Origin: Bacillota bacterium
GTDB taxonomy: Bacteria > Bacillota > Dehalobacteriia > UBA4068 > UBA4997
Length of the DNA: 64,000 nt
Direction of reading: 5' to 3'
Assembly (NCBI GenBank): GCA_021771915.1
Contig: JAETNY010000011.1
Location: 1 to 64,000 of the forward strand
Numbering within the stretch: the stretch's first letter is position 1; the number at the start of each line of letters is the position of its first letter. This document shows, in pieces, positions 9,971 to 42,869 of this stretch. A model generated the notes under the pieces. That model saw only the letters and a program-made list of their open reading frames with translations. It made no database searches and had not been told where the DNA came from. The position numbers and the translations under genes are program-made.

Positions 9971-11320
9971 TCAGCTTATCAGCAAATGCTTTTCGTGCAT
10001 TGAACCTGGATTAAATAAAGATAGCAAGGCTAATATAACGCCAGTAGTTCCATTCAAATAACTATCGTCGTCTTCCTCTGGCAAATCTTTCGGCCCATAA
10101 TCAATGTTTTTGAAGCCATACTTAAAATCCGGATTATACAGGTTCAAAATCTCATCTAAACACATATATAAGCCAGGCAACAGTTCTTTAAACGATGTTT
10201 CTCTATATATCTGATTAAAAATAGCCATAGTGCCGGCAAAACCGTGACAAATAATAGGTGATAATAAATTGTAAAATCGCAAAGGCGTTTTTGAAATTAT
10301 CTCCATATTACGTAAATATTCGCTGCCGTCTTTGCCTAGACATTTATACGCCTGATACAGCACACAGGAAATGCCTATTGAACCATAACACCAACTCATA
10401 CGCGTATCAGTTGCTGCCACATTTTGCTTTTTGTATAATTCTGCTGGCAAAATCATCGGCCAGTACATAATATCGTTTTTTACTGTTTTATGTTCATCCA
10501 TAACACTGATTAACTTTTCTATTGCCAGCTGCTGACTGTCAACAGAAATATTTCGTGCCGCAGAATAAGCCATAAGGGCTAACGGCCCAGCAATGCCATG
10601 CGCCACGCCAAAATCCAAAGTCCCATGTAAATATTGCGTTCTGCGCTCCACCGGCCAGAGATTTTCATTCGTTACATAAAAACCGATAATTTCTTTATCT
10701 TCAACGGTAATATTTGCCGATTTTTTTACCAGATAGCGCAGGATTTGCACCAAAGCCTTTTTTTCAGTTGTACAATCCTGTATATACCCCAAGCTTTCTA
10801 TATACATAAGCAAGTATCTGCCCACGCCAGTCATACCGATAATTATATCATAGTGCTGCACCAGTGTGTTTTCATTCTCTATTTTGGTTAACTTTGTCAT
10901 TGTTAAATCACAAACAATTTTATTTAATGATTTAAGAAATTTACTAAATTCACCTGATTTAATCGTTACACCCAAAAGAGCAAAAGCCATATCTGTTAAA
11001 CCATGAAAAAGGGCTAAACTATCATAATGCTCTATATTTTTCTTAAAATAAACTAATATATTATATACATTGTTTAGCCAGCGTTTTTTTTCAAGCAAGA
11101 AATCATAGCCATCGCCAATCGCCAACAAGTACGAAGCCAATAAATGACCGTCTATACAATCTCTGTCCTGTTTCCACATATTCTGTTCATTAGCTGCTAA
11201 GTCCTGCAAAACGCCGTCAATTCGGTTATAATAGGCTTCTAATATATCTATGATTTTTTGTTTCTGCTGCTCATCTAAAGGAGCCATATTTTGATTAAAA
11301 AGTTCTTTATTTAACATCAT
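9971..11320 (-). CDS. lanC: lanthipeptide cyclase LanC
   Basis: The 449-residue protein shows the LanC zinc-site and catalytic motifs: VAHGIAGP (His near 240), SWCYGSIG (Cys near 309) and ICHGFAGT (Cys-His near 357). LanC adds precursor cysteines to dehydroalanine and dehydrobutyrine to close thioether rings. The start at 11320 overlaps the lanB stop by 14 bases and has AAGGAG nine bases upstream, so translation is coupled to lanB. All key residues are present, so the enzyme is probably active. Confidence 0.92.
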   Translation of the reverse strand: MMLNKELFNQNMAPLDEQQKQKIIDILEAYYNRIDGVLQDLAANEQNMWKQDRDCIDGHLLASYLLAIGDGYDFLLEKKRWLNNVYNILVYFKKNIEHYDSLALFHGLTDMAFALLGVTIKSGEFSKFLKSLNKIVCDLTMTKLTKIENENTLVQHYDIIIGMTGVGRYLLMYIESLGYIQDCTTEKKALVQILRYLVKKSANITVEDKEIIGFYVTNENLWPVERRTQYLHGTLDFGVAHGIAGPLALMAYSAARNISVDSQQLAIEKLISVMDEHKTVKNDIMYWPMILPAELYKKQNVAATDTRMSWCYGSIGISCVLYQAYKCLGKDGSEYLRNMEIISKTPLRFYNLLSPIICHGFAGTMAIFNQIYRETSFKELLPGLYMCLDEILNLYNPDFKYGFKNIDYGPKDLPEEDDDSYLNGTTGVILALLSLFNPGSMHEKHLLIS

Positions 11321-14300
11321 TAAACTGCGCTCCTTTTTTTACATTGCTCGCGTCATGCAGCAACATATTACTTTTGGTAAAAATAGCATGTCTAGTTAAA
11401 AATGACACCTTATGTTCCCACTCACGATTACCGTCATATCTATTGCAGAACATATGGATTAAGGTTAGCAAAATATTGTCTATACTGTTAGCGAGCTGCC
11501 CAGTTGCCTCTACCTGTTTAATCTGCCGCGCATATTGTTGAATAACCGCTGTTCTCTCCTCAGCAATGCGCTGAACTTTGGCTGAAAAATTTTTAATATA
11601 GTTATCTTCTATCGCATTTAGATAGTCCTTTTTCTGTTTGCGGAATACCTCTTTATATTTAATATTATCCATATATTTAACAAAAAAATCATTAGTTGCC
11701 TGTATACCATCATAAAAACAGCCAACCAAATTTTGCATAACCCAAATACCAATTTTCTCCCGCTGAATTTCACCTGCATTCTTACTTATTTCTTGTAGCA
11801 AGGCAATAACGAATCGACTATCATAGCAAAAATAATTTTCAGCATATCTGATTAGATTTGAACCACCATATCTCTCAATTTCTCTTTCATATTGAGAAAT
11901 AATATATTCATAGCTAATCAGATTTTCCTGCAACAAATTAAACCATTCTCTAAATTTCTGCATAATCTCGCCCAACTTATCTGGCTTTGTAATTTGCAAC
12001 CGCAGGCGAATATGATATTTAGGATCAGCATACTTTATGAAAAAAAATTTTTTTATAATCGACTGATAAAACATATCATCAATAAACGGTTCCAGATATT
12101 TTGCCAAAAAGGTAGAAGCCTGCATTTTATTTACATATATTTTAAAATATATCCACCCCTCGTCTCCTGGATATAGCACTCGATCAGGCGTATAAAAACT
12201 AGACAATACATTTCTTACTGCATAAAAGGAACCAGAAGTATTCTCATTTGCACTAGAAATATGCTCCTGCAAATCAACCCTGAAAAATGGAACGCTGAAT
12301 TCCGCAGCATAAAATCTATGCTTCTCGTCCTTAACTAAAGAAGTCGAAATATTTTCATATTCCATTCTCTCTAAAACGACTTCCTTTCTTTGCTTAACCA
12401 ATGCTCTATATAGCAATTTAAAAGTAAACTCATTTTCCAAATCCAACACTAACCGATTATCCATATGAGCATAATACACATACTTAGGTAACTTCCAAAT
12501 TTGCAGGTATTCTTTTAGCTCCGTTGCAAACTGGTCCAATAATTTGCCTGTGAACTGTTCAGGATCCAAGCGCCATTTTTCATTAGACAGAACAATATTG
12601 CCAAATTTAATTTTAGGGCAGTAAGCATATTTCATACTTTGCAACATAAATAAATTTTGAATCGGCGACACCTCATAAGTAGCAGAAATACTGCGTAAAA
12701 AACGAATAACCGGATTGCTGGAAAAAACATTATACATACTGTTTGTTATAAACTTCACTCTTTTTTGCAAGGACTTAGACCAAATAAACATCTGATTTTT
12801 TTTGGGATCATGCCCCAAGTACAAATCATTCAGATTTAACGAAGTGTTATGCTCAAACTCAGTGATACCTAGATACAAATTATGATCATACTGACGCTTA
12901 TAGCTGTACAAATTGGTATTTCTCAAATAATGAGAGACTTCATAAACATCTGCAATAACATAATCTTCACTATGATGTAGCTTTTCTCGTCTATATATTT
13001 CGTCCATTTCCTGCGAGAAATCAGTATTCAGGGCACTGTCAAAGCGACTGATACCATTACCAGCTTGAGCAGAGCCTACATTTGGCCCAATGTATATTTC
13101 ATAACCGGTATCTGCATTGGTAACAAATACGTTTAAGCTGTATGAACTAGCATAATTCAATTTAGCCATTTCCTCACTATCTATGGCCTTTATGGTTTCA
13201 ATATCTGCATCTGTTATTTCCACAACAGATCGTCCTTGCCGAAGCGCAGTCATTATTTTATTTTCTAGCATTCCTTTTATAACATTTAATTTTCTATATG
13301 CGTGCCGAGAATTTCCACCTTCTGCTGCTTCAGCCATATACCCATTATATGGTAATCCCAAACCAATATCTGTGTCAATCACCTCGGTTAGAGGGATTAA
13401 TGCGTCAGAACCATACTTTACCATAAAAATATTCTTAAAGGCTTGCAACTTCTCGTCTTCATTATATGGCGTAGCTAGACTCATCATAAAGTCTGAGAAT
13501 TCTTCCAATTCATTTTTAATTTTAATATCCAACTTGTTATTTTCTGAATCCAATTTCAAAATTGTATAAATATAATTCTTGGCCTTAACCACCTGTTCCA
13601 TAAGCCCGGTTAGGCTTGCCAAAATTTCTTCTCCCTTACCAAACTGCGCCTTAGCATATTCCTCACGCAACTTGTCTATCTCAACCAATTTATCTATAAG
13701 AGCCTGTTCCTCCGCCAGCAAATCTATAAACTTATTGTTTTGCAGCAGGCTGTGCAGCGGATCATCTTCCTTTGATAATACACAGATATTTGTATATATG
13801 TATTCATTTTGCAACAACTCTTTTAAGAATTTGTCAATAATTTTCTGCGGCACATTGGGGTTTTTGGCAAATAAAAAGTTGCGCAAATCCTTAAAAGGCA
13901 CAAAATCGGCGGCAAACTCCCGTACATAATCCACCTGTTTGGTATATTTGATACTTAAATCCTCGGCATGTTCAACATTTTCCTTGCGCAAGTTAGAGCA
14001 ATAACAGTTTTTCAAACGAGATTTTGCCTTATAGCAATGCTTATTAAAAATTACCTGCAAATTCAGCAACAAGCCCGGCATTTCCTCAATTTTCTTTACC
14101 AGCTTAAAATACCACTCGTTATCGACCCGGCAAATTTTATGGTATTGCTCTTGCCCAGCCAAGCAAATATCCGTACCCTCACTACTGAACTCCGCCGTAG
14201 CCACACCAGCAAAAAGGCCATATGGCGTTGGTCTAGCAGTCATTCTACCATAATATTTTTTAACCGACTCAATCATTCTATCTGTGGTTTTAGTTGAGCT

Positions 14301-14477
14301 ATCTGCATACATTTTATATAAATCCTGCGAGGCAATAGCCACTGCCTCGGCAAATAGTTCATCTTGCCGGCAGAAAGCCATAACCTCATCATCTGCCAGT
14401 TTTGCAAAATCATAAAATTCATTCAAACTTCTGGCAGGACAACGCATCAATACATGGTTTGCCGCTTGATACTGCAT
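11307..14477 (-). CDS. lanB: class I lanthipeptide dehydratase LanB
   Basis: The 1056-residue protein is a full-length LanB. It has a large N-terminal tRNA-dependent glutamylation domain and, from about residue 770, the elimination domain (GWIYFKIYVNK..., then FFFIKYADPKYHIRLRLQI). It glutamylates Ser and Thr of the precursor with Glu-tRNA and eliminates glutamate to give dehydro amino acids. I prefer the ATG at 14477, which has GAGGTG six bases upstream, over the GTG three codons earlier, which overlaps that site. The gene overlaps lanC. Confidence 0.93.
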   Translation of the reverse strand: MQYQAANHVLMRCPARSLNEFYDFAKLADDEVMAFCRQDELFAEAVAIASQDLYKMYADSSTKTTDRMIESVKKYYGRMTARPTPYGLFAGVATAEFSSEGTDICLAGQEQYHKICRVDNEWYFKLVKKIEEMPGLLLNLQVIFNKHCYKAKSRLKNCYCSNLRKENVEHAEDLSIKYTKQVDYVREFAADFVPFKDLRNFLFAKNPNVPQKIIDKFLKELLQNEYIYTNICVLSKEDDPLHSLLQNNKFIDLLAEEQALIDKLVEIDKLREEYAKAQFGKGEEILASLTGLMEQVVKAKNYIYTILKLDSENNKLDIKIKNELEEFSDFMMSLATPYNEDEKLQAFKNIFMVKYGSDALIPLTEVIDTDIGLGLPYNGYMAEAAEGGNSRHAYRKLNVIKGMLENKIMTALRQGRSVVEITDADIETIKAIDSEEMAKLNYASSYSLNVFVTNADTGYEIYIGPNVGSAQAGNGISRFDSALNTDFSQEMDEIYRREKLHHSEDYVIADVYEVSHYLRNTNLYSYKRQYDHNLYLGITEFEHNTSLNLNDLYLGHDPKKNQMFIWSKSLQKRVKFITNSMYNVFSSNPVIRFLRSISATYEVSPIQNLFMLQSMKYAYCPKIKFGNIVLSNEKWRLDPEQFTGKLLDQFATELKEYLQIWKLPKYVYYAHMDNRLVLDLENEFTFKLLYRALVKQRKEVVLERMEYENISTSLVKDEKHRFYAAEFSVPFFRVDLQEHISSANENTSGSFYAVRNVLSSFYTPDRVLYPGDEGWIYFKIYVNKMQASTFLAKYLEPFIDDMFYQSIIKKFFFIKYADPKYHIRLRLQITKPDKLGEIMQKFREWFNLLQENLISYEYIISQYEREIERYGGSNLIRYAENYFCYDSRFVIALLQEISKNAGEIQREKIGIWVMQNLVGCFYDGIQATNDFFVKYMDNIKYKEVFRKQKKDYLNAIEDNYIKNFSAKVQRIAEERTAVIQQYARQIKQVEATGQLANSIDNILLTLIHMFCNRYDGNREWEHKVSFLTRHAIFTKSNMLLHDASNVKKGAQFNDVK

Positions 14478-14499
14478 AATAATCACCTCGTTAATTTAG

Positions 14500-34566: not shown

Positions 34567-34929
34567 CTAAAAGCTCATTTTTACACTTTGTTTTTTCCGC
34601 CGCCGCTCATATTCTGCCTGCCTTTTCCGCCGCATAGCAATCGCACATCCAGAACAATATTTTGCCCGGCCAGATTTAATCTGCAAGGATTTGCCGCAAA
34701 CTACACAACGCCGTACATTGTCCGCTTTAGATATATCTGCACACAAAGCCGCACACTCCCGGTCAGGCAGAACCGCCTCCTTGAAATAATTACACAGCAG
34801 CGTATACGAAGCGCTTTGCGGGCAAGGGCTATCCAGTATTAAACAGCGCCCCTTATCCCAATTAGCGCAAAGGGCGGCAATATGCGCTCTTGCCTGCCGC
34901 AGCTGCTTATCCGTCATAACTTCAGCCAT
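34567..34929 (-). CDS. cysteine-rich VLP-type ICE protein
   Basis: The 120-residue protein has an N-terminal Cys-containing part (LCANWDKGRCLILDSPCPQS), the motif YFKEAVLPDREC, and a C-terminal zinc ribbon (RCVVCGKSLQIKSGRAKYCS, then GCAIAMRRKRQAEYERRRKK). This matches Cys_rich_VLP proteins of conjugative transposons. The start overlaps the topoisomerase stop by eight bases. The function is unknown. Confidence 0.85.
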   Translation of the reverse strand: MAEVMTDKQLRQARAHIAALCANWDKGRCLILDSPCPQSASYTLLCNYFKEAVLPDRECAALCADISKADNVRRCVVCGKSLQIKSGRAKYCSGCAIAMRRKRQAEYERRRKKQSVKMSF

Positions 34930-36715
34930 TAGCAGACCTCCGCTGGACAGGCGGAAACAGCACTTCTACACCCTGAACGGCCTTGCTGTTCGCAACCAAA
35001 CCGCCCACCATATCCGCAATCAACTGCATAAATTCGTCCTCTGGCAAATTGCCGCGCTCAACCTCCAACAGCTTTTGCTCCCATTCAGCGGTCAAAAGCG
35101 GCGATTGCAATTCCTCCGGCAGAACGGTGATGAGCGCCTTGCCCAGCTGGGTCGGCAGCAGATTGGCCGCTTTTTTACCCTTTTTACGCTCCAGCAGCCC
35201 CACATTCACCAGCTTTTCAATAATCCCAGCTCTAGTTGCCGGTGTACCTATACCTTTTCTCGCCGTCCCAATAGGAATATCTTTTGCCCCGACTCTCTCC
35301 ATTGCCGCTAACAGCGTATCCTCGGTGTAATGGGCTTTAGGCTCGGTTTTCCCCTGCTTAACTGCTACATTTTCAACCTGACGCGTTTGCCCCGCGACAA
35401 CTTCACCGCTGAATTGCTCCAAAACCTTATCTTTCGGGCAATATTGCTGCCAACCATAGTCCAGCATTTCTTTAACGCTGGCTGTAAATACAGCGCCGCC
35501 GCACTCCGCCGTAATTTTAATCTGGGCATAGCGGCAGGGAGCGGCAACCGCCCGGAGCAGGCCGAAACAAACCAGCCCCAAGACTGCCGCCTCCCCCTTG
35601 GGCAATTCAGCAACTTTATCTGGCGTTAAACTCTTGGTCGGAACAAGAGCGTGGTGATCGCTCACCTTGGCCGAATTGCAAACTTGGGCTGACAAAATTT
35701 CACCCGGCGCTTTCAAACCGCAGACCACTGAAGCAATCTCCGCTAAATCTGGCACAACGCTTGCCATATCCCCGGTCAGATAGCGGCTGTCCGTTCTCGG
35801 ATAGCTTACCAGCTTTTTCTCATAGAGGGCTTGCAGATAATCCAGCGTTTGCTTGGCGGTATAGCCCAAACGCCGGTTAGCCTCCCTTTGCAGCGCGGTC
35901 AAGTCATAGAGCATCGGCGGCTTGTCCTCTTTCTTCTGCCGCTCCGCAGATTTTATGGTTATGTTTTCTTGACGGCAAGCTGCTGCCAATGCCTCGGCTG
36001 CTTTTTTATCCGCCATTCTTTCACTTGTCAATTTCAAATTTTTAGCTTCAACCTCAACTGTATAGAATTTTTCTGGCTGAAAGGCGGCAATTTCCGCCTC
36101 CCTCGCCACAGTCAGAGCCAGAGTTGGCGACATCACCCGGCCAACGTGCAAAGTGCGGCCATAAAGCAGAGAAAACAGCCTAGTGCCGTTAATCCCCACC
36201 AGCCAATCCGCTTTTGCCCGGCAAAGCGCCGCCCTATAAAGCCCCTCGTATTCCTCGCCGGGTTTGAGGTTGGCAAACCCCACCCGGATAGCGCTTTCCT
36301 CCATACTGTTTATCCAAAGGCGCTTAACCGGCTTGCTGCAACCAGCCAGACAATAGACGCTGCGAAAGATGAGTTCACCCTCGCGCCCGGCGTCGCAGGC
36401 ATTTATGACTTCGTCCACCTCATCTCGCCGCATAAGTTCCTGCAAGATTGCAAACTGCTTTTTGGTGCTGGCCGCAATCGTCATTCGCCAGCTGTTGCCT
36501 GGCAAAATGGGCAAATCCTCTCTGCGCCATTTGGCATAATTTTTGTTGTAAACCTCTGGTGCAGCCAGCCCGGCCAAATGCCCCACGCACCAGCTAACCA
36601 AATAACCGCCGCCCTCCATATAGCTCTCTTTGCGGGATTTTGCCCCCAGAACTTTCGCCAAACTCATCGCCACGCTGGGTTTTTCTGCAATAACTAATTT
36701 CATTTTTTCTTTCAA
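34922..36715 (-). CDS. topB: DNA topoisomerase III
   Basis: The 597-residue protein begins with a Toprim domain (KLVIAEKPSVAMSLAKVLGA) with acidic residues in NACDAGREGELIF. The catalytic Tyr is in LVSYPRTDSRYL (~307). Type IA enzymes of this kind resolve single-strand tangles during ICE processing. The start is probably the TTG at 36715, eight bases after AGGAGG; the ATG four codons later is too far away. Confidence 0.93.
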   Translation of the reverse strand: MKEKMKLVIAEKPSVAMSLAKVLGAKSRKESYMEGGGYLVSWCVGHLAGLAAPEVYNKNYAKWRREDLPILPGNSWRMTIAASTKKQFAILQELMRRDEVDEVINACDAGREGELIFRSVYCLAGCSKPVKRLWINSMEESAIRVGFANLKPGEEYEGLYRAALCRAKADWLVGINGTRLFSLLYGRTLHVGRVMSPTLALTVAREAEIAAFQPEKFYTVEVEAKNLKLTSERMADKKAAEALAAACRQENITIKSAERQKKEDKPPMLYDLTALQREANRRLGYTAKQTLDYLQALYEKKLVSYPRTDSRYLTGDMASVVPDLAEIASVVCGLKAPGEILSAQVCNSAKVSDHHALVPTKSLTPDKVAELPKGEAAVLGLVCFGLLRAVAAPCRYAQIKITAECGGAVFTASVKEMLDYGWQQYCPKDKVLEQFSGEVVAGQTRQVENVAVKQGKTEPKAHYTEDTLLAAMERVGAKDIPIGTARKGIGTPATRAGIIEKLVNVGLLERKKGKKAANLLPTQLGKALITVLPEELQSPLLTAEWEQKLLEVERGNLPEDEFMQLIADMVGGLVANSKAVQGVEVLFPPVQRRSANG

Positions 36716-36747: not shown

Positions 36748-36785
36748 AAGAACTGCCCTGCGAAATATCTCACAGGGCAGTTCTT
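36748..36785 (-). terminator. terminator-like hairpin after the SLH gene
   Basis: AAGAACTGCCCTG pairs perfectly with CAGGGCAGTTCTT (13 pairs). On the minus strand it is followed by TGTCT, a weak T-tract. It separates the SLH protein gene from topB. Confidence 0.6.
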
Positions 36786-36796
36786 ATCATCTAAAA

Positions 36797-39700
36797 CTAT
36801 CTATTCCAACTTTCAGCGGTTTTATCTTTATTATCATAAACCGCCGTATGGCTGTTAGCCGCCTCCAGAATAGCGGCATATGCCCAGTGCTGGGTGTAAA
36901 CATCGCTAAACAGATTGAGCCTGCGGCCGCTCTTGGCAATATATTCGCTGTCCGCCACTCGCCCCAGCAGATTATTTATAAGCGTTACCGCCTCAGCACG
37001 GGTAATCTTGGCTTCAGCCTTAAAGCTGCCGTTGCCGCCTGTGCCCGCATGGGTATATCCCTGTACCCAACCGTAAAGCGCCGCCTCCTGAATGTAGTCC
37101 GCCGCCCAATAGCTGCCGGATACATCGTTGAAATTGTTTGCAGCAGCATTTTTAGCGTTGGTTACGTTTTGTTTTTCACCAACTACTTCAAAATAGCGCA
37201 CTGCCATAGCCGTCAGTTCCGCCCGGCTAATATCTTCATTCGGCCTAAAGGCGCTCTTATCGCCAACAATAACGCCGTAGCCCACCAGATAATTTACATA
37301 ATCGGCATACCAAGCGTTGACGGTGGTATCCGCAAAGGGCGCATATTTGGCCGGGGAGATATTTTCATTTTTAGCCGCAGCCAGCAGCCGGGCAAAAATC
37401 GCCGAAGCCTCAGCGCGCGTCATTTGCGCTTCCGGCCTAAATGTACCGTCGGTATAGCCCACAATGTAGGCGCTGTGTTTTTCCGTTTTCGGTGCGCTTT
37501 CCGGGAGCAGCAGCTGGCCGTCCTTATCCGTTTCGCCCATGCCTTTCTGGTTTAAATCCCCCTTAACCGTTACCGGTACATCAGGTTTGGCCTGCTGTTT
37601 CTGGTCGGTAATATCCACCAAAATCTGGTTTTTCTCGTCCATATCCACACCCTCTGGCAGCTGAATATTCACATCACCCTTTTTGGAAGTGTTTACTTCA
37701 GCGTTTTTAATCGGGCGGTTAGTGTCGCCCTTGCTGACCTTAACCGTCAAAGTCTGCTTAACGCCGTCGTCTGTCCGGCCAATAGTAACCACGCCGTCGC
37801 CATTGGTGTTGCCGGAAGTAGCCGGGACAATAAGCTGGCCGGTGTTGTCCGTTTTACCGGCAGAATAATTCTTATTCACATCGGTTACAGATACAGGCAT
37901 AGAAGATACCGCTTTTAGATCCTCCTTGGTTTGCACTTTAACCGTTGTCTGTTCGGCATAGTCCAGCAGCCTATTGCTGGGCAGATTTACGGAAATTGTA
38001 TCGTCATTATTAAGGCTGACAACCGCTCCCGCTATCCGACTCGCCCCTCCGGGACTCGCTGGACTCCCTGCGGTCGCAGGATTTTTGCTATCTGTATCAG
38101 TTACGGTAACAAGATATTTGCCCACAACAGCTTCGCCCTTGCCGTCGGTTACCGACTGGTTATACACTCTTTCAATAGCTGCCGTTTCCACAACTGCGCC
38201 GCACTTGGTGCAAGCCTTATGTTTGCTACCCTCGGCGGTCAATGTGGGCTGCTTATCTACAATCCATTCTCCGGCGGTATGCCCAGTAGGGTCGGTATAA
38301 TCTGCGGTGTAACTGTCGCTGCAATATTTGCAGGTAAAAGTAGTATATCCCATTGCCGTACAAGTAGCGGCTGTCGCCTTGCTCACATAATCGTGGCCGG
38401 TTGCCGGCTGCAAAATAGCGTTACATACGGTACAAATTTGCGGCTCGGTGCAGGTTGCGCTCGCTCCCGGCTTATGACCCAATGGAGATTCCGCCTCCAA
38501 TCTATGCAGGCCGCAGCTTTCACAGCGGTATTCTGTCATTCCCTCGCCATTGCAAACAGAGTTAATAACCTTGGTGCCTGCGTCCCACTTATGACCGGCA
38601 GGCTCGGTGTAGTCGGCCACATAACTATCCTCGCAGTATTCGCAGGTATAGGTGGTGTAGCCTTTTTCCAAACAGGTAGGCTCGCATACTTCCGGCAGAT
38701 AGTTATGACCGGTAGGTTTGGTATATTCCGTTTTATAGCTGAAACCGCAGTTTTCACAGGTGAAAGTAGTATAACCCATATCCAAGCAGCTGGCCGCTGT
38801 TATTTCTTCCTTAAAGGTATGCCCCAAAGCCTGCTGGAGGATTGCCCCACAGGTGGTGCAAACCTGCGGTTCATTACAGTTAGCCGCTTCGCCCGGCGTA
38901 TGCCCTAAAGCGGATTCCGCCTCCAGCCGCACCTCGTTACAGTTCTCACAACGGTATTCCGTCATACCATCGCTATTGCAGGCAGAGCCGACAACAGTTT
39001 TGCCGCCGTCCCATTTATGGCCGGTGGCCTCAGTGTAATCGCTGACATAGCTGTCGCCGCAGCGGTCGCAGGTGAAAGTAGTGTATCCGCCCTCGGTGCA
39101 GGTAGCCGAAGTAACCTCCGGCAGATAATTATGCCCCAAGGGTTTGGTATATTCCGACTTATAGGCGTAACCGCAGCCCTCGCATACATAATCGGTATAG
39201 CCCATATCCAAACAAGTGGCCGGGGTTACTTTTTCCACAAACTTATGCCCCAAAGCCTGCTGGAGGATAGCGCCGCAGTCGGTACAAATCTGCGCTTCAG
39301 TGCAGGTTGCCGCTTTGCCCGGCGTATGGCCTGCCGCCGCTTCATTTTCCAACCTTACCGCCTCGCAGTTTGCACAACGGTATTCGGTCATTCCCTCGCC
39401 GCCGCAGGTGGGACTAACCACCTTATGGCCGCCGTCCCATTTATGACCAGTGGCTTCAGTATAATCGCTGACATAGCTATCTCCGCACTTGGTGCAGGTA
39501 TAGGTGGTATACCCCTCCGCCAAACAAGTGGGAGCGGTAACATCTTTAGCGTAATTATGCCCCAGATGGTCGGTATAATCGGTTTTATAGGCAAGGCCGC
39601 AGTCTTTGCAGGTTACGGTAGTATAGCCAATGTTAGTGCAGGTGGGCGCAGTAACATTCTGCTCCAGCCTATGCCCTTTGGCGTTCTGCAAAACCGCTCC

Positions 39701-42037
39701 GCACTTGGTGCAAAGCTGTGCTTCTGTGCAGGTAGCAGCCACGCCCGGCGTATGCCCGGAGGCGCTGGCCGTTTCTAACCGCACCGCATCGCATTTTTTG
39801 CAGTGGTATTCGGTAATGCCAGCCCCGTTACAGGTGGCGTTTACTTTTTCCGTACCGCTGTCCCAAATATGGTCGGTCATTTCCCGGAAGTTCCCAACAT
39901 AACTATCGCCGCATTTCCGGCAGGTGTATGTGGTATAGCCCTGCTGGGTGCAGCTGGGAGCGGTTACCTGCTCGGAATAGTTATGCCCCAGTGCGTTTAC
40001 ATAATCGCTCTTATAACTCTGGTTACAGTTAATGCAGGTGTATTTGGTATAGCCCATTTCAGTGCAGTTGGGCTGGCAAGACTCCTGCCAGTATCGGTGT
40101 CCCGTGGCTTCCGCCAAGACTGCGCCGCAGACTACACAGGTTTGCGGGCTGACGCAGGTCGCCGCTGCTCCGGCCACGTGGCCGCTGCCGGCTTTCGTTC
40201 CCGTGGAGGAATAGGCGGTATTTGCAGCAGAGCTAAGAACCGTATTTGCCGAATTGAACACCTGATTTTGTACCGGCGCTTTCAGCAAAGATGTATTCAA
40301 AGCGGTATTCAATGCTGTTTTATGGGCGTTATTCCAAAAATCCTCGCAGGAACTATGCAGGCCGCTGGCCACAGTTTCCCGTTTAGTAGCGCCGCAGCGA
40401 GTGCAGGTATATTCCATAATGCCGTCCTCAGCGCAGGTCGGCTCAACGATATATTCCCCCTCGTTCCAAGCGTGGCCTAAAGGTTCAGTATGATCGCCGA
40501 TGAAAGTGCTGCCGCAGCCCTCGCAGATATATGTTGTCTGGCCGCCGGTGGTACAGGTGGGCAGAACTGTATGCGCCGCATAATCGTGAGGCAGAGCGTT
40601 AGTCATTGCCGTAATGTGTCTGTCGCCGCAGACGGAACATTCCTTGACCGTATAGCCGGGACTGGTACAGGTTGGAGCTACATTAAAAGTACCATACTTA
40701 TGCTCGCCCTTGGGTGTGTATTCCACTTCGGACAAGCCGCAGCGGGAGCAGATATTCAGCACTTTACCGTCCACCTCGCAGGTGGCCTCCCGAATTAAAA
40801 TCTGCTGCATAGCGTGTCCCAGAGAATCCACATAATCCCGCTTTTCAATCTTGCCGCAGTTTATGCAAAGATAGCGGTCGTAACCCAGCGCCAAACAGGT
40901 AGGCTTAATGCTCTCAATAAGGCTGAATTTATGGTTTTCGCCGCAGGTGTTTTTGCAGCAGTTACCGCCGCAGTTAGGTTTTTGACAATCGCAGTTCGGA
41001 TCACCACAACCGCAGGCGCAGCCGCCGTCCGGCTCTCTTTCTTCGTGCAGCCACACATAAGCTACGCCGCTTTCCACCATTTCGGTGCTATCGTCATACT
41101 TATACGTAACCTCATAATAGACTGTATACTGACCGGCTTCGGTAAAGTTTGGCGCAGAAGTTAATGTGCAGTTATTGGCGCTGGTGCCATAGCGAATAGA
41201 AGCCCGAACTCCGGCCTCCGACAAATCGCTGATAGTGATAGTGTGGGGCTGGCCGTCCACCACGCCGTAGTAATCCGCCACAACCACCTTTGCCGCCACA
41301 TAATCGTACTTGATATAATCGCAGTCGGTACAGTGCGATACAATAGCAAACCTCTGATTAGCCAGCTGAGGCAACACCTCTTTGGTCATATTGTGGGGTA
41401 CTAAACGGCTGCTTTTATTATGCAGCGTGCCATAACAAAAGGCGCAGTATTTACCGCCCTCCCGCGTTTCCTTGTGGTACTGGCTGTCCACATATTCAAA
41501 GCTGACCTGCTCGTCCAAATTCTGCATAAACTCGGCGGCGCAGTCATAAAGCCAGTAAATATTCTTCTTGAAACAATACTCGTCATAATCCATTTGGGTA
41601 TTGAAGTTGCCGCACTGGGAGCAGACAGCTTTCGTCCAATGGTGCTGAGCATAGTAAGCGTTTACGCCCGGCTTACCGCTGTTGACATTACCTTTAGTAA
41701 CGCCGTCCACCATTGTGCCGTCGGAATACTTCACATTCCGGGTCAAATCGCTGTTGCCGTCCCTAGTATATTCCGGGGCTCGCCAAACATCAAATTGGGT
41801 TGCCCTGCCGCACACAGCGCACAAAAATGTTTCCGTTGTAACAACCGCATTGGCGTCCAGCTCGTTTGTCCTGTTACCAGAGGTCGTCCAATGTTCGGCA
41901 GGGTCGTGATAGCTGTTCTGTTGCGCCGCATAAACTGCTTGCAGCGGCATAAACGGCATAAACTGTCCAACCAGCACCGCAAACATAAGCACCAAGGCCA
42001 GCAAACGTCTATAATTCTTACTGATTTTCGTTTCCAT
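36797..42037 (-). CDS. SLH-domain surface protein with Cys-rich tandem repeats (1746 aa)
   Basis: A signal peptide ends near residue 38 (LQAVYAAQQ). A Cys-rich region follows, then a Cys-dense stretch (CACGCGDPNCDCQKPNCGGN, ~340-360). From about 370 to 1290 there are repeats of ~36 residues with CxxCG pairs, ordered in 142-residue superunits. A linker with GxTDxxGQLxxP repeats comes next, then three SLH domains in the last ~230 residues (YIVGYTDGTFRPEAQMTRAE and similar). SLH domains anchor proteins to cell-wall polymer. It may be a mating-pair adhesin, but that is inference from its place in the transfer region. Confidence 0.85.
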   Translation of the reverse strand: METKISKNYRRLLALVLMFAVLVGQFMPFMPLQAVYAAQQNSYHDPAEHWTTSGNRTNELDANAVVTTETFLCAVCGRATQFDVWRAPEYTRDGNSDLTRNVKYSDGTMVDGVTKGNVNSGKPGVNAYYAQHHWTKAVCSQCGNFNTQMDYDEYCFKKNIYWLYDCAAEFMQNLDEQVSFEYVDSQYHKETREGGKYCAFCYGTLHNKSSRLVPHNMTKEVLPQLANQRFAIVSHCTDCDYIKYDYVAAKVVVADYYGVVDGQPHTITISDLSEAGVRASIRYGTSANNCTLTSAPNFTEAGQYTVYYEVTYKYDDSTEMVESGVAYVWLHEEREPDGGCACGCGDPNCDCQKPNCGGNCCKNTCGENHKFSLIESIKPTCLALGYDRYLCINCGKIEKRDYVDSLGHAMQQILIREATCEVDGKVLNICSRCGLSEVEYTPKGEHKYGTFNVAPTCTSPGYTVKECSVCGDRHITAMTNALPHDYAAHTVLPTCTTGGQTTYICEGCGSTFIGDHTEPLGHAWNEGEYIVEPTCAEDGIMEYTCTRCGATKRETVASGLHSSCEDFWNNAHKTALNTALNTSLLKAPVQNQVFNSANTVLSSAANTAYSSTGTKAGSGHVAGAAATCVSPQTCVVCGAVLAEATGHRYWQESCQPNCTEMGYTKYTCINCNQSYKSDYVNALGHNYSEQVTAPSCTQQGYTTYTCRKCGDSYVGNFREMTDHIWDSGTEKVNATCNGAGITEYHCKKCDAVRLETASASGHTPGVAATCTEAQLCTKCGAVLQNAKGHRLEQNVTAPTCTNIGYTTVTCKDCGLAYKTDYTDHLGHNYAKDVTAPTCLAEGYTTYTCTKCGDSYVSDYTEATGHKWDGGHKVVSPTCGGEGMTEYRCANCEAVRLENEAAAGHTPGKAATCTEAQICTDCGAILQQALGHKFVEKVTPATCLDMGYTDYVCEGCGYAYKSEYTKPLGHNYLPEVTSATCTEGGYTTFTCDRCGDSYVSDYTEATGHKWDGGKTVVGSACNSDGMTEYRCENCNEVRLEAESALGHTPGEAANCNEPQVCTTCGAILQQALGHTFKEEITAASCLDMGYTTFTCENCGFSYKTEYTKPTGHNYLPEVCEPTCLEKGYTTYTCEYCEDSYVADYTEPAGHKWDAGTKVINSVCNGEGMTEYRCESCGLHRLEAESPLGHKPGASATCTEPQICTVCNAILQPATGHDYVSKATAATCTAMGYTTFTCKYCSDSYTADYTDPTGHTAGEWIVDKQPTLTAEGSKHKACTKCGAVVETAAIERVYNQSVTDGKGEAVVGKYLVTVTDTDSKNPATAGSPASPGGASRIAGAVVSLNNDDTISVNLPSNRLLDYAEQTTVKVQTKEDLKAVSSMPVSVTDVNKNYSAGKTDNTGQLIVPATSGNTNGDGVVTIGRTDDGVKQTLTVKVSKGDTNRPIKNAEVNTSKKGDVNIQLPEGVDMDEKNQILVDITDQKQQAKPDVPVTVKGDLNQKGMGETDKDGQLLLPESAPKTEKHSAYIVGYTDGTFRPEAQMTRAEASAIFARLLAAAKNENISPAKYAPFADTTVNAWYADYVNYLVGYGVIVGDKSAFRPNEDISRAELTAMAVRYFEVVGEKQNVTNAKNAAANNFNDVSGSYWAADYIQEAALYGWVQGYTHAGTGGNGSFKAEAKITRAEAVTLINNLLGRVADSEYIAKSGRRLNLFSDVYTQHWAYAAILEAANSHTAVYDNKDKTAESWNR
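38300..40180. repeat. 426-bp tandem coding repeats in the SLH gene
   Basis: The GHTPG-AAT-type superunit start recurs at about 38468, 38894, 39320, 39746 and, more diverged, 40170. The CCCGGC/CCCGG landmark of the first four copies is spaced by exactly 426 bases (142 codons). Copies are similar but not identical, so the array can expand or shrink in frame. Confidence 0.8.
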
Positions 42038-42107: not shown

Positions 42108-42869
42108 TTAATTTTCTGACACCACCTCGTCTTTCTCGTTATCTTCCGTTTCTTCTGTTTCTTCCGCCTCCTCATCATCTAAATAATCTTCTTCGTCCGC
42201 ATCTTCATCGTCAAAATCTGGCGTTTGCCGCTTGTCCGCCTGTTTGGCAATAAAGCTTTTATACAGATAAAAACCGCCTGCGCCAAACATTACCAATAAC
42301 GCCAGCAGAGCAGCCACGGCCAAAGCCGGATTTTGGGCTTTTTCCTCCTCCGGCTTGCTGACTTGCTGCTCATTGCCCAAGCAAGACTGCATATCCACAG
42401 CGCAAACCTCGCAGGCCGTATTCACAGAGCCGACAAAGCATTTATCCCGCCCCTTGCAGGTGCAAACCGGCGTTTTCTGGGTAGGCTCGTCCTCCAGCAA
42501 AGCCAGCAAATCCGCCTCGTCCACCTGATTTAAGAAATGCACCGTCTGCTTTCCCTTGCTGTCCCGCTCAATGATGATGTAAAAGTAATTGCCGCTTTTG
42601 GTTTGTACGGTCAAAAACTCCTTATCTGAAGAACTGAAAGTCTGCACATCGTCTACCAGAGTCAGATTGCCCTCCGGGGTCAGCGCATTTGCGCTGCCCC
42701 AATCCTGCAAATCATCAAGCTGCGTTTGTCCCGAACTTTCTTTGTTCTCCGACTGTTCCGGCGTATCCAGCACAAAAGCGTAAACCGGGGCGCTGCAACT
42801 GCTTAAACAAAAGGCGATAAGCAGCAGCATTGCCAGCAGCCTCTGCGCCCTAACCATTCCAAACCTCAC
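42108..42869 (-). CDS. DUF4366-type ICE membrane protein
   Basis: The 253-residue protein has a signal peptide ([17 protein letters not shown]), an extracytoplasmic domain ([20 protein letters not shown], then [19 protein letters not shown]), a Cys-rich segment (CTCKGRDKC...[11 protein letters not shown]), a membrane helix (~190-212) and a very acidic cytoplasmic tail. This is the DUF4366 layout of Tn1549-like transfer regions. It overlaps the DUF4315 gene by 20 bases. It is a probable transfer-complex accessory protein. Confidence 0.85.

Follow-up and report, generated by a model that had tools for sequence, protein, structure and literature searches.

A surface-protein gene in a Tn1549-like transfer region

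The window, a stretch of 64,000 nucleotides from a Bacillota bacterium (contig JAETNY010000011.1), contains at 36797-42037 on the minus strand an ATG-initiated open reading frame of 1746 amino acids. Sequence and domain searches point to a product that is a predicted SLH-anchored surface protein with C,C,C,H modules. The gene parts, the hairpin and the two neighbouring genes described below lie on the same strand. The gene is preceded by a DUF4366/CD1107-like gene (42108-42869; ORF list and gene order) and followed by topB (34922-36715; ORF list and NCBIfam). Its position between these two genes, already assigned by a sequence-only reading of the window, is confirmed and falls within the transfer region of a CD1110-type (Tn1549-like) ICE. 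The NCBIfam matches of topB were slightly below the curated cut-off. The DUF4366/CD1107-like gene had no NCBIfam match of its own; it owes its name to the sequence-only reading, to its place after CD1108 and DUF4315-like genes and to the gene order of pMG2200. Assignment of the host element as a CD1110-type (Tn1549-like) ICE is based on its gene content. The VirB4 protein is of the CD1110 type (1095.7 bits, cut-off 325), the CD1108 protein scored 174.5 (cut-off 100), and a relaxase, MobC/NikA, TrbL and an integrase were recognized by Pfam, with one of the two recombinase ORFs scanned. A broader CD1108 search was left out; it gave matches in 110 of 199 genomes, which among those listed covered mostly the C-terminal part and allow a general NlpC/P60-type reading. 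At 9971-14486, the element also carries lantibiotic dehydratase and LanC-like genes near ABC-transporter-like ORFs (assigned by eye), and this gene set recurs in the copy on C3.

Further copies of the gene are present on C21, C13 and C15 of the same genome, with a remnant on C3. The order VirB4-CD1108-DUF4315-DUF4366-gene-topB is repeated in C21 and C13 as well as in G5C40 and G7C53. G7C53 belongs to another genome and is 99.8% identical to the window along a match of 12791 bp; a single-base gap, which may be a sequencing error, disrupts the frame of its copy of the gene. As the pyrG-guaA region of the two genomes shares 94% identity over the 2.8 kb matched, compared with 99.8% for the element, the element probably moved recently between them. 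The slot between the DUF4366 gene and topB is empty in pMG2200 and Vescimonas, where 4-bp overlaps are found instead. Thus, the gene is not a general requirement of the transfer machinery.

Between the gene and topB, comparison and folding revealed a conserved hairpin (36748-36785). It is kept in five of five type-A copies, 4 of its 17 base pairs have changed in both strands of the stem, and the stretches folded gave free energies of -28.6 to -35.8 kcal/mol. A clear T run is missing, and the hairpin may serve as a processing or partial termination signal. A scan for promoters and terminators returned about as many candidates as shuffled sequences.

The predicted protein begins with a putative signal peptide (about residues 1-38; 41924-42037), recognized by eye from the sequence. 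It is followed by a conserved N-terminal domain (residues 39-340; 41018-41923) with four CxxC pairs and an Ig-like end part, defined by comparison and by the model of a relative. A dense Cys cluster (residues 341-366; 40940-41017), five C,C,C,H modules (residues 381-561; 40355-40897) and a CxxC-free linker (residues 562-622; 40172-40354), all read from the sequence, lead to the repeat array. Repeat spacing and superunit comparison delimit superunits 1 (residues 623-764; 39746-40171), 2 (residues 765-906; 39320-39745), 3 (residues 907-1048; 38894-39319) and 4 (residues 1049-1190; 38468-38893), the second and third of which were also modelled. The sequence continues with an incomplete fifth superunit and a final, degenerate module (residues 1191-1290; 38168-38467). 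An Ig-like region (about residues 1291-1515; 37493-38167) comes next, known from weak Pfam matches in 24 relatives (Big_1 in 23 and CarboxypepD_reg in 19 of them). Three SLH domains (about residues 1520-1697; 36947-37480), supported by Pfam, by relatives and by a relative's model, and a C-terminal tail found conserved by comparison (36797-36946, including the stop codon) complete the protein. The first part of the N-terminal domain, corresponding to about residues 60-240 of the model of the relative L070, was hardly covered by any match in the structure search.

The SLH domains proposed from the sequence were verified by PF00395, which matched three C-terminal stretches with an E value of 5.9e-21, and SLH was present in 24 of 24 relatives scanned. 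The trimer fold was judged on the L070 model (mean pLDDT 73.3) rather than on the window's own SLH part; there, the SLH part aligned with Sap of B. anthracis (6bt4) with a Z score of 15.9 and an rmsd of 3.1 over 148 residues. Direct reading of the C-terminus, where the conserved tail follows the SLH domains, revealed no LPxTG sorting signal. The host genome encodes a csaB candidate (TIGR03609, 268 bits, cut-off 213), although the same search exceeds the cut-off in 4 of 14 controls, among them E. coli. From these features we infer that the protein is exported and anchored to the wall through its SLH domains.

Cys/His modules as putative zinc clamps

The window protein contains 94 Cys residues and 28 CxxC pairs, 19 of which are CxxCG. 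Recurrence of Cys-rich units at 426-bp steps, as first proposed, stood up to closer analysis. The best self-match of the protein occurs at an offset of 142 amino acids, equivalent to 426 bp (40.5% of positions, residues 351-1290), and the short modules that open the superunits start at residues 628, 770, 912, 1054 and 1196, i.e. with an exact spacing of 142. Within residues 623-1290, 305 of 526 positions match at this offset, far above the values from 2000 shuffles (mean 37.4, maximum 58). Tandem Repeats Finder reported just 1.8 copies of the 426-bp unit, a low figure explained by the 55-71% identity of the superunits at the DNA level.

Each full superunit consists of four modules. A pattern count yielded 23 C,C,C,H sets for the 24 CxxC pairs after residue 330. 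Nearly all modules in 34 family proteins follow the spacing C-x9-CxxC-x12/13-H or C-x5-CxxC-x9-H. Across 28 aligned pairs of superunits, 16 of 16 ligand columns were invariant in the first superunit and 10 of 16 in the second. The only solved sequence kin of the modules that we found is the IgA protease of T. ramosa (9qa6). Its residues 936-975 match the last module (E value 5.5e-6) and its residues 862-975 match the family profile A3 (E value 1.4e-9), while PDB sequence searches with the repeat region alone or with profile A4 returned no zinc-domain kin. The zinc-binding domains of the protease are modelled as zinc sites without disulfides in the published structure work (PMC12237041).

Whether the modules bind metal or form disulfides had been left undecided by the sequence-only reading. 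As a C,C,C,H set is retained in every module and the kin domains have been modelled free of disulfides, the metal half of this proposal is favoured, and zinc clamps are the likelier state of the modules. A disulfide-linked stalk is disfavoured by the same C,C,C,H conservation and by the kinship to the IgA protease. The best reading of the array would be a stalk of zinc-clamped modules. A predicted model of two window superunits (mean pLDDT 89.1, pTM 0.37) mostly has three strands per full-length module, a pattern that fits the IgA-protease-type module. Foldseek found no match to this model at an E value of 0.001 or better. The best Z score in the VIA comparison was 2.8 over 36 residues among tied rows, which is uninformative, and neither comparison listed 9qa6.

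Element linkage and history of the family

Scanning genome contigs with an N-terminal profile yielded 39 loci, 36 of which had an ORF carrying the domain. Hosts were mostly Oscillospiraceae and other Clostridia, and mostly gut bacteria. Profile A2 was found in 5 of 9 genomes of the genus and in 6 of 398 genomes of the phylum sample, two of the latter matches being weak. Family members share the N-terminal domain, 6-23 Cys/Cys/Cys/His modules, the Ig-like region and the SLH trimer. A search by title and abstract found no paper describing this family; with its incomplete journal coverage it does not prove the family to be unpublished.

The gene, denoted X, occurs in five settings: DUF4366-X-topB; ParB or RepA-X-PcfB-VirD4-Maff2-TrbL-VirB4; ParA-ParB-X-SNF2; DinG-Toprim-X-SSB-ParB-ParM; and a relaxase operon-X-VirD4. 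After two duplicates had been dropped (L065 of L041 and L088 of L047, reducing 45 rows to 43) and with L094-L096, which have no N-domain ORF, omitted, any panel gene was found nearby at 40 of 43 unique loci. Since the accessory panel genes came from these same loci, only the count of core transfer genes with window-derived queries is a fair measure; this count includes topB and SNF2-type helicase genes. It was positive at 26 of 43 loci, the remaining 17 having none within the available flanking DNA. Outside the window's genus, 19 of 33 loci had a core transfer gene nearby compared with 1 of 20 in a control set of loci surrounding SLH-only proteins from relatives (Fisher p 1e-4). The proposed tie between this SLH-anchored Cys-rich protein and conjugative elements therefore extends well beyond the window.

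Two other origins were rejected. The 20 SLH-only control loci rule out a generic chromosomal SLH protein, and the N-terminal domain had no match in phages, with three matches in viral_contigs. A distant relative on a Monoglobus plasmid (L097, 11914-17711) is flanked by a relaxase operon on one side and by a VirD4 gene on the other. It is annotated as two ORFs with a 4-bp overlap within the repeat array, reflecting a frameshift or a sequencing error.

Among the 34 family proteins, module number ranges from 6 to 23, and 18 of them have seven. L083, with 20 modules, also has 142-aa superunits, whereas L079 and L077 repeat at 65 amino acids in two-module units. Thus, arrays have grown in different units. 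Window superunits share 49-68% protein identity among themselves and 77-88% with the same-numbered superunits of other type-A copies. In a superunit tree, with some branches weakly supported, same-numbered superunits group across copies and not by array. All five type-A copies have four superunits and both C15-type copies have three. Type-A superunits 3 and 4 fall into a single group with the C15-type superunit 3 (support 87/90), and the C15 type has only three superunits. A single in-frame duplication that followed the split of the two types therefore probably gave rise to superunit 4. Signs of superunit homogenisation were absent. The dN/dS values, rough because of high dS, were 0.056-0.071 for the N-terminal domain and 0.070-0.084 for the superunits where estimable; both head and superunits are under strong purifying selection.

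The suggestion that length varies by recombination holds to the extent that module number differs between lineages. Present-day length change is not supported: superunits cluster by position across copies, and the type-A copies uniformly keep four. Recent expansion or contraction in type-A copies is rejected by the superunit tree. The pattern would instead fit rare, old in-frame duplication.

Several copies of the gene are cut near the 5' end. C3 and G7C93 carry two different types of the gene that break off at one and the same point, after CATTGGA in the HDPAEHW codons, and continue into related elements that are about 83% identical over 6 kb. These elements have a serine-recombinase-like ORF followed by MobC- and relaxase-like ORFs (by eye), and the latter two of C3 also show DNA similarity to the window's genes. 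G5C35 has only the right part of the gene, starting at the TGGA of the same codon and preceded by TTACAAACACCCTT. This is the exact reverse complement of AAGGGTGTTTGTAA, which lies just inside the left junction of C3. Inverted arms of 14 bases are thus seen at left and right junctions that stem from different genomes. L096 is joined to other DNA at about the same place, and L094 is cut about 25 bp further on. The junctions are located at about position 557 in L159, 5870 in L161, 3880 in L042, 10057 in L096 and 10090 in L094; the window counterpart is at about 41885-41895. The junction flanks look like the two arms of a serine-integrase attachment site, and other mobile elements would then seem to use the 5' end of this ICE gene for attachment. 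Integration can only be deduced because no locus has both ends of one insertion and the gene's right part is missing from the C3 stretch examined. As the cut copies also show, a copy of the element can lose the gene.

Possible role and relation to known systems

Most likely, this protein would act as a contact factor in mating or in colonisation. That it may be an adhesin for mating-pair formation, as the sequence-only reading suggested, is plausible. In the mechanism we propose, the gene is part of the conjugative element, and its product would be exported to the cell surface, where the SLH trimer would hold it non-covalently to a pyruvylated cell-wall polymer. The approximately 23 small beta modules, each Cys/Cys/Cys/His set most likely clamping one zinc ion, would form a long, stiff stalk that carries the conserved N-terminal domain away from the wall. 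Applying 110 angstrom per 129 residues to the window array of about 925 residues extrapolates to a span of about 80 nm. As with the zinc, we infer the rigidity and length of this stalk. The head would bind an external target, most likely a neighbouring cell's surface, and thereby aid transfer of the element. Such a contact protein would agree with the linkage to elements, the conserved and presumably exposed head, the putative long stalk and the wall anchor. Wall-anchored adhesins are described as frequent means of mating-pair formation in Gram-positive systems (PMC12857230). That the protein is an element-encoded, SLH-anchored stalk presenting a conserved head as a contact factor for transfer is the reading we prefer, tentatively and at slightly less than an even chance. 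Points against it are the empty slot in pMG2200 and Vescimonas, the 17 of 43 loci without a core gene, the cut copies and the pTM of 0.37.

That a Tn1549-type slot can be empty would suit an adhesin that serves the host cell in gut attachment or biofilm formation and merely travels on the element. This is possible, at a clearly lower probability. The hosts found are mostly gut bacteria, and the stalk-like Cna-B proteins encoded on C. difficile elements, whose ligands are given as unknown, have been discussed as host-interaction factors (PMC3158075). Against such a passenger, the gene lies close to core genes or to genes for partition or replication in several types of element, not in a cargo module, and the window's own cargo, the lantibiotic genes, lies elsewhere. 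An exposed protein that belongs to an element might also block redundant entry of related elements, or of phages. Such exclusion or shielding is unlikely: the coexistence of several related copies in the window's genome speaks against strong exclusion among these, and no known exclusion family was matched in Pfam or NCBIfam. Zinc storage or capture, suggested by the wealth of Cys/His sets in the window protein (94 Cys, 23 C,C,C,H sets), is highly improbable given that 18 of 34 family proteins have only seven modules, that the N-terminal domain is under selection at least as strong as the array and that metal exchange at structural zinc sites is usually slow.

Little is known of the way in which donor and recipient are brought together by mobile elements of gut anaerobes, and a conserved head-on-stalk family occurring across several element backbones provides a concrete gene for testing. 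The protein might represent a separate class of conjugation contact factors on mobile elements of anaerobic Clostridia, anchored by SLH domains and not by sortase, with a zinc-clamped stalk whose number of modules sets the reach and with one conserved head that moves between unrelated backbones; we regard this broader proposal as doubtful but possible. The Gram-positive conjugation examples described in PMC12857230 use LPxTG adhesins. Moreover, the modules offer a test bed for extracellular zinc modules, which in anaerobes may take the part that disulfides play elsewhere.

Several known systems resemble the protein in part. Zinc-binding domains ZBD1 and ZBD2 of the Thomasclavelia ramosa IgA protease (PDB 9qa6) resemble it through the sequence match to the last module and the family profile. 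In the published models they are elongated, disulfide-free and composed of three-stranded Cys/His modules (PMC12237041), features that the window modules may share. In contrast, the domains as described there form two short stretches of an enzyme with a sortase signal, and most of their sites have two His and two Cys. The family described here has up to 23 C,C,C,H modules, an SLH anchor and no enzyme domain that we found, and the window protein is encoded on an ICE. The SLH proteins Sap (6bt4, 3pyw) and SpaA share the SLH trimer (Z scores of 14-16 for the relative's model). Unlike them, the window protein is encoded on a mobile element, and we do not attribute an S-layer role to it. PrgB and other LPxTG conjugation adhesins are likewise wall-anchored proteins encoded together with transfer genes, as described in PMC12857230, whereas the window protein has an SLH anchor. 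Pfam detected no polymer adhesin domain in the window protein (E values up to 1) or in 24 relatives (E values up to 0.01); the unmatched head could hide a distant one. A further likeness is to CD0386 and other Cna-B proteins of the C. difficile CTn elements, which are stalk-like surface proteins on a conjugative element. By the account in PMC3158075, these combine an LPXTG anchor with Cna-B repeats, while the window protein combines SLH domains with Cys/His modules.
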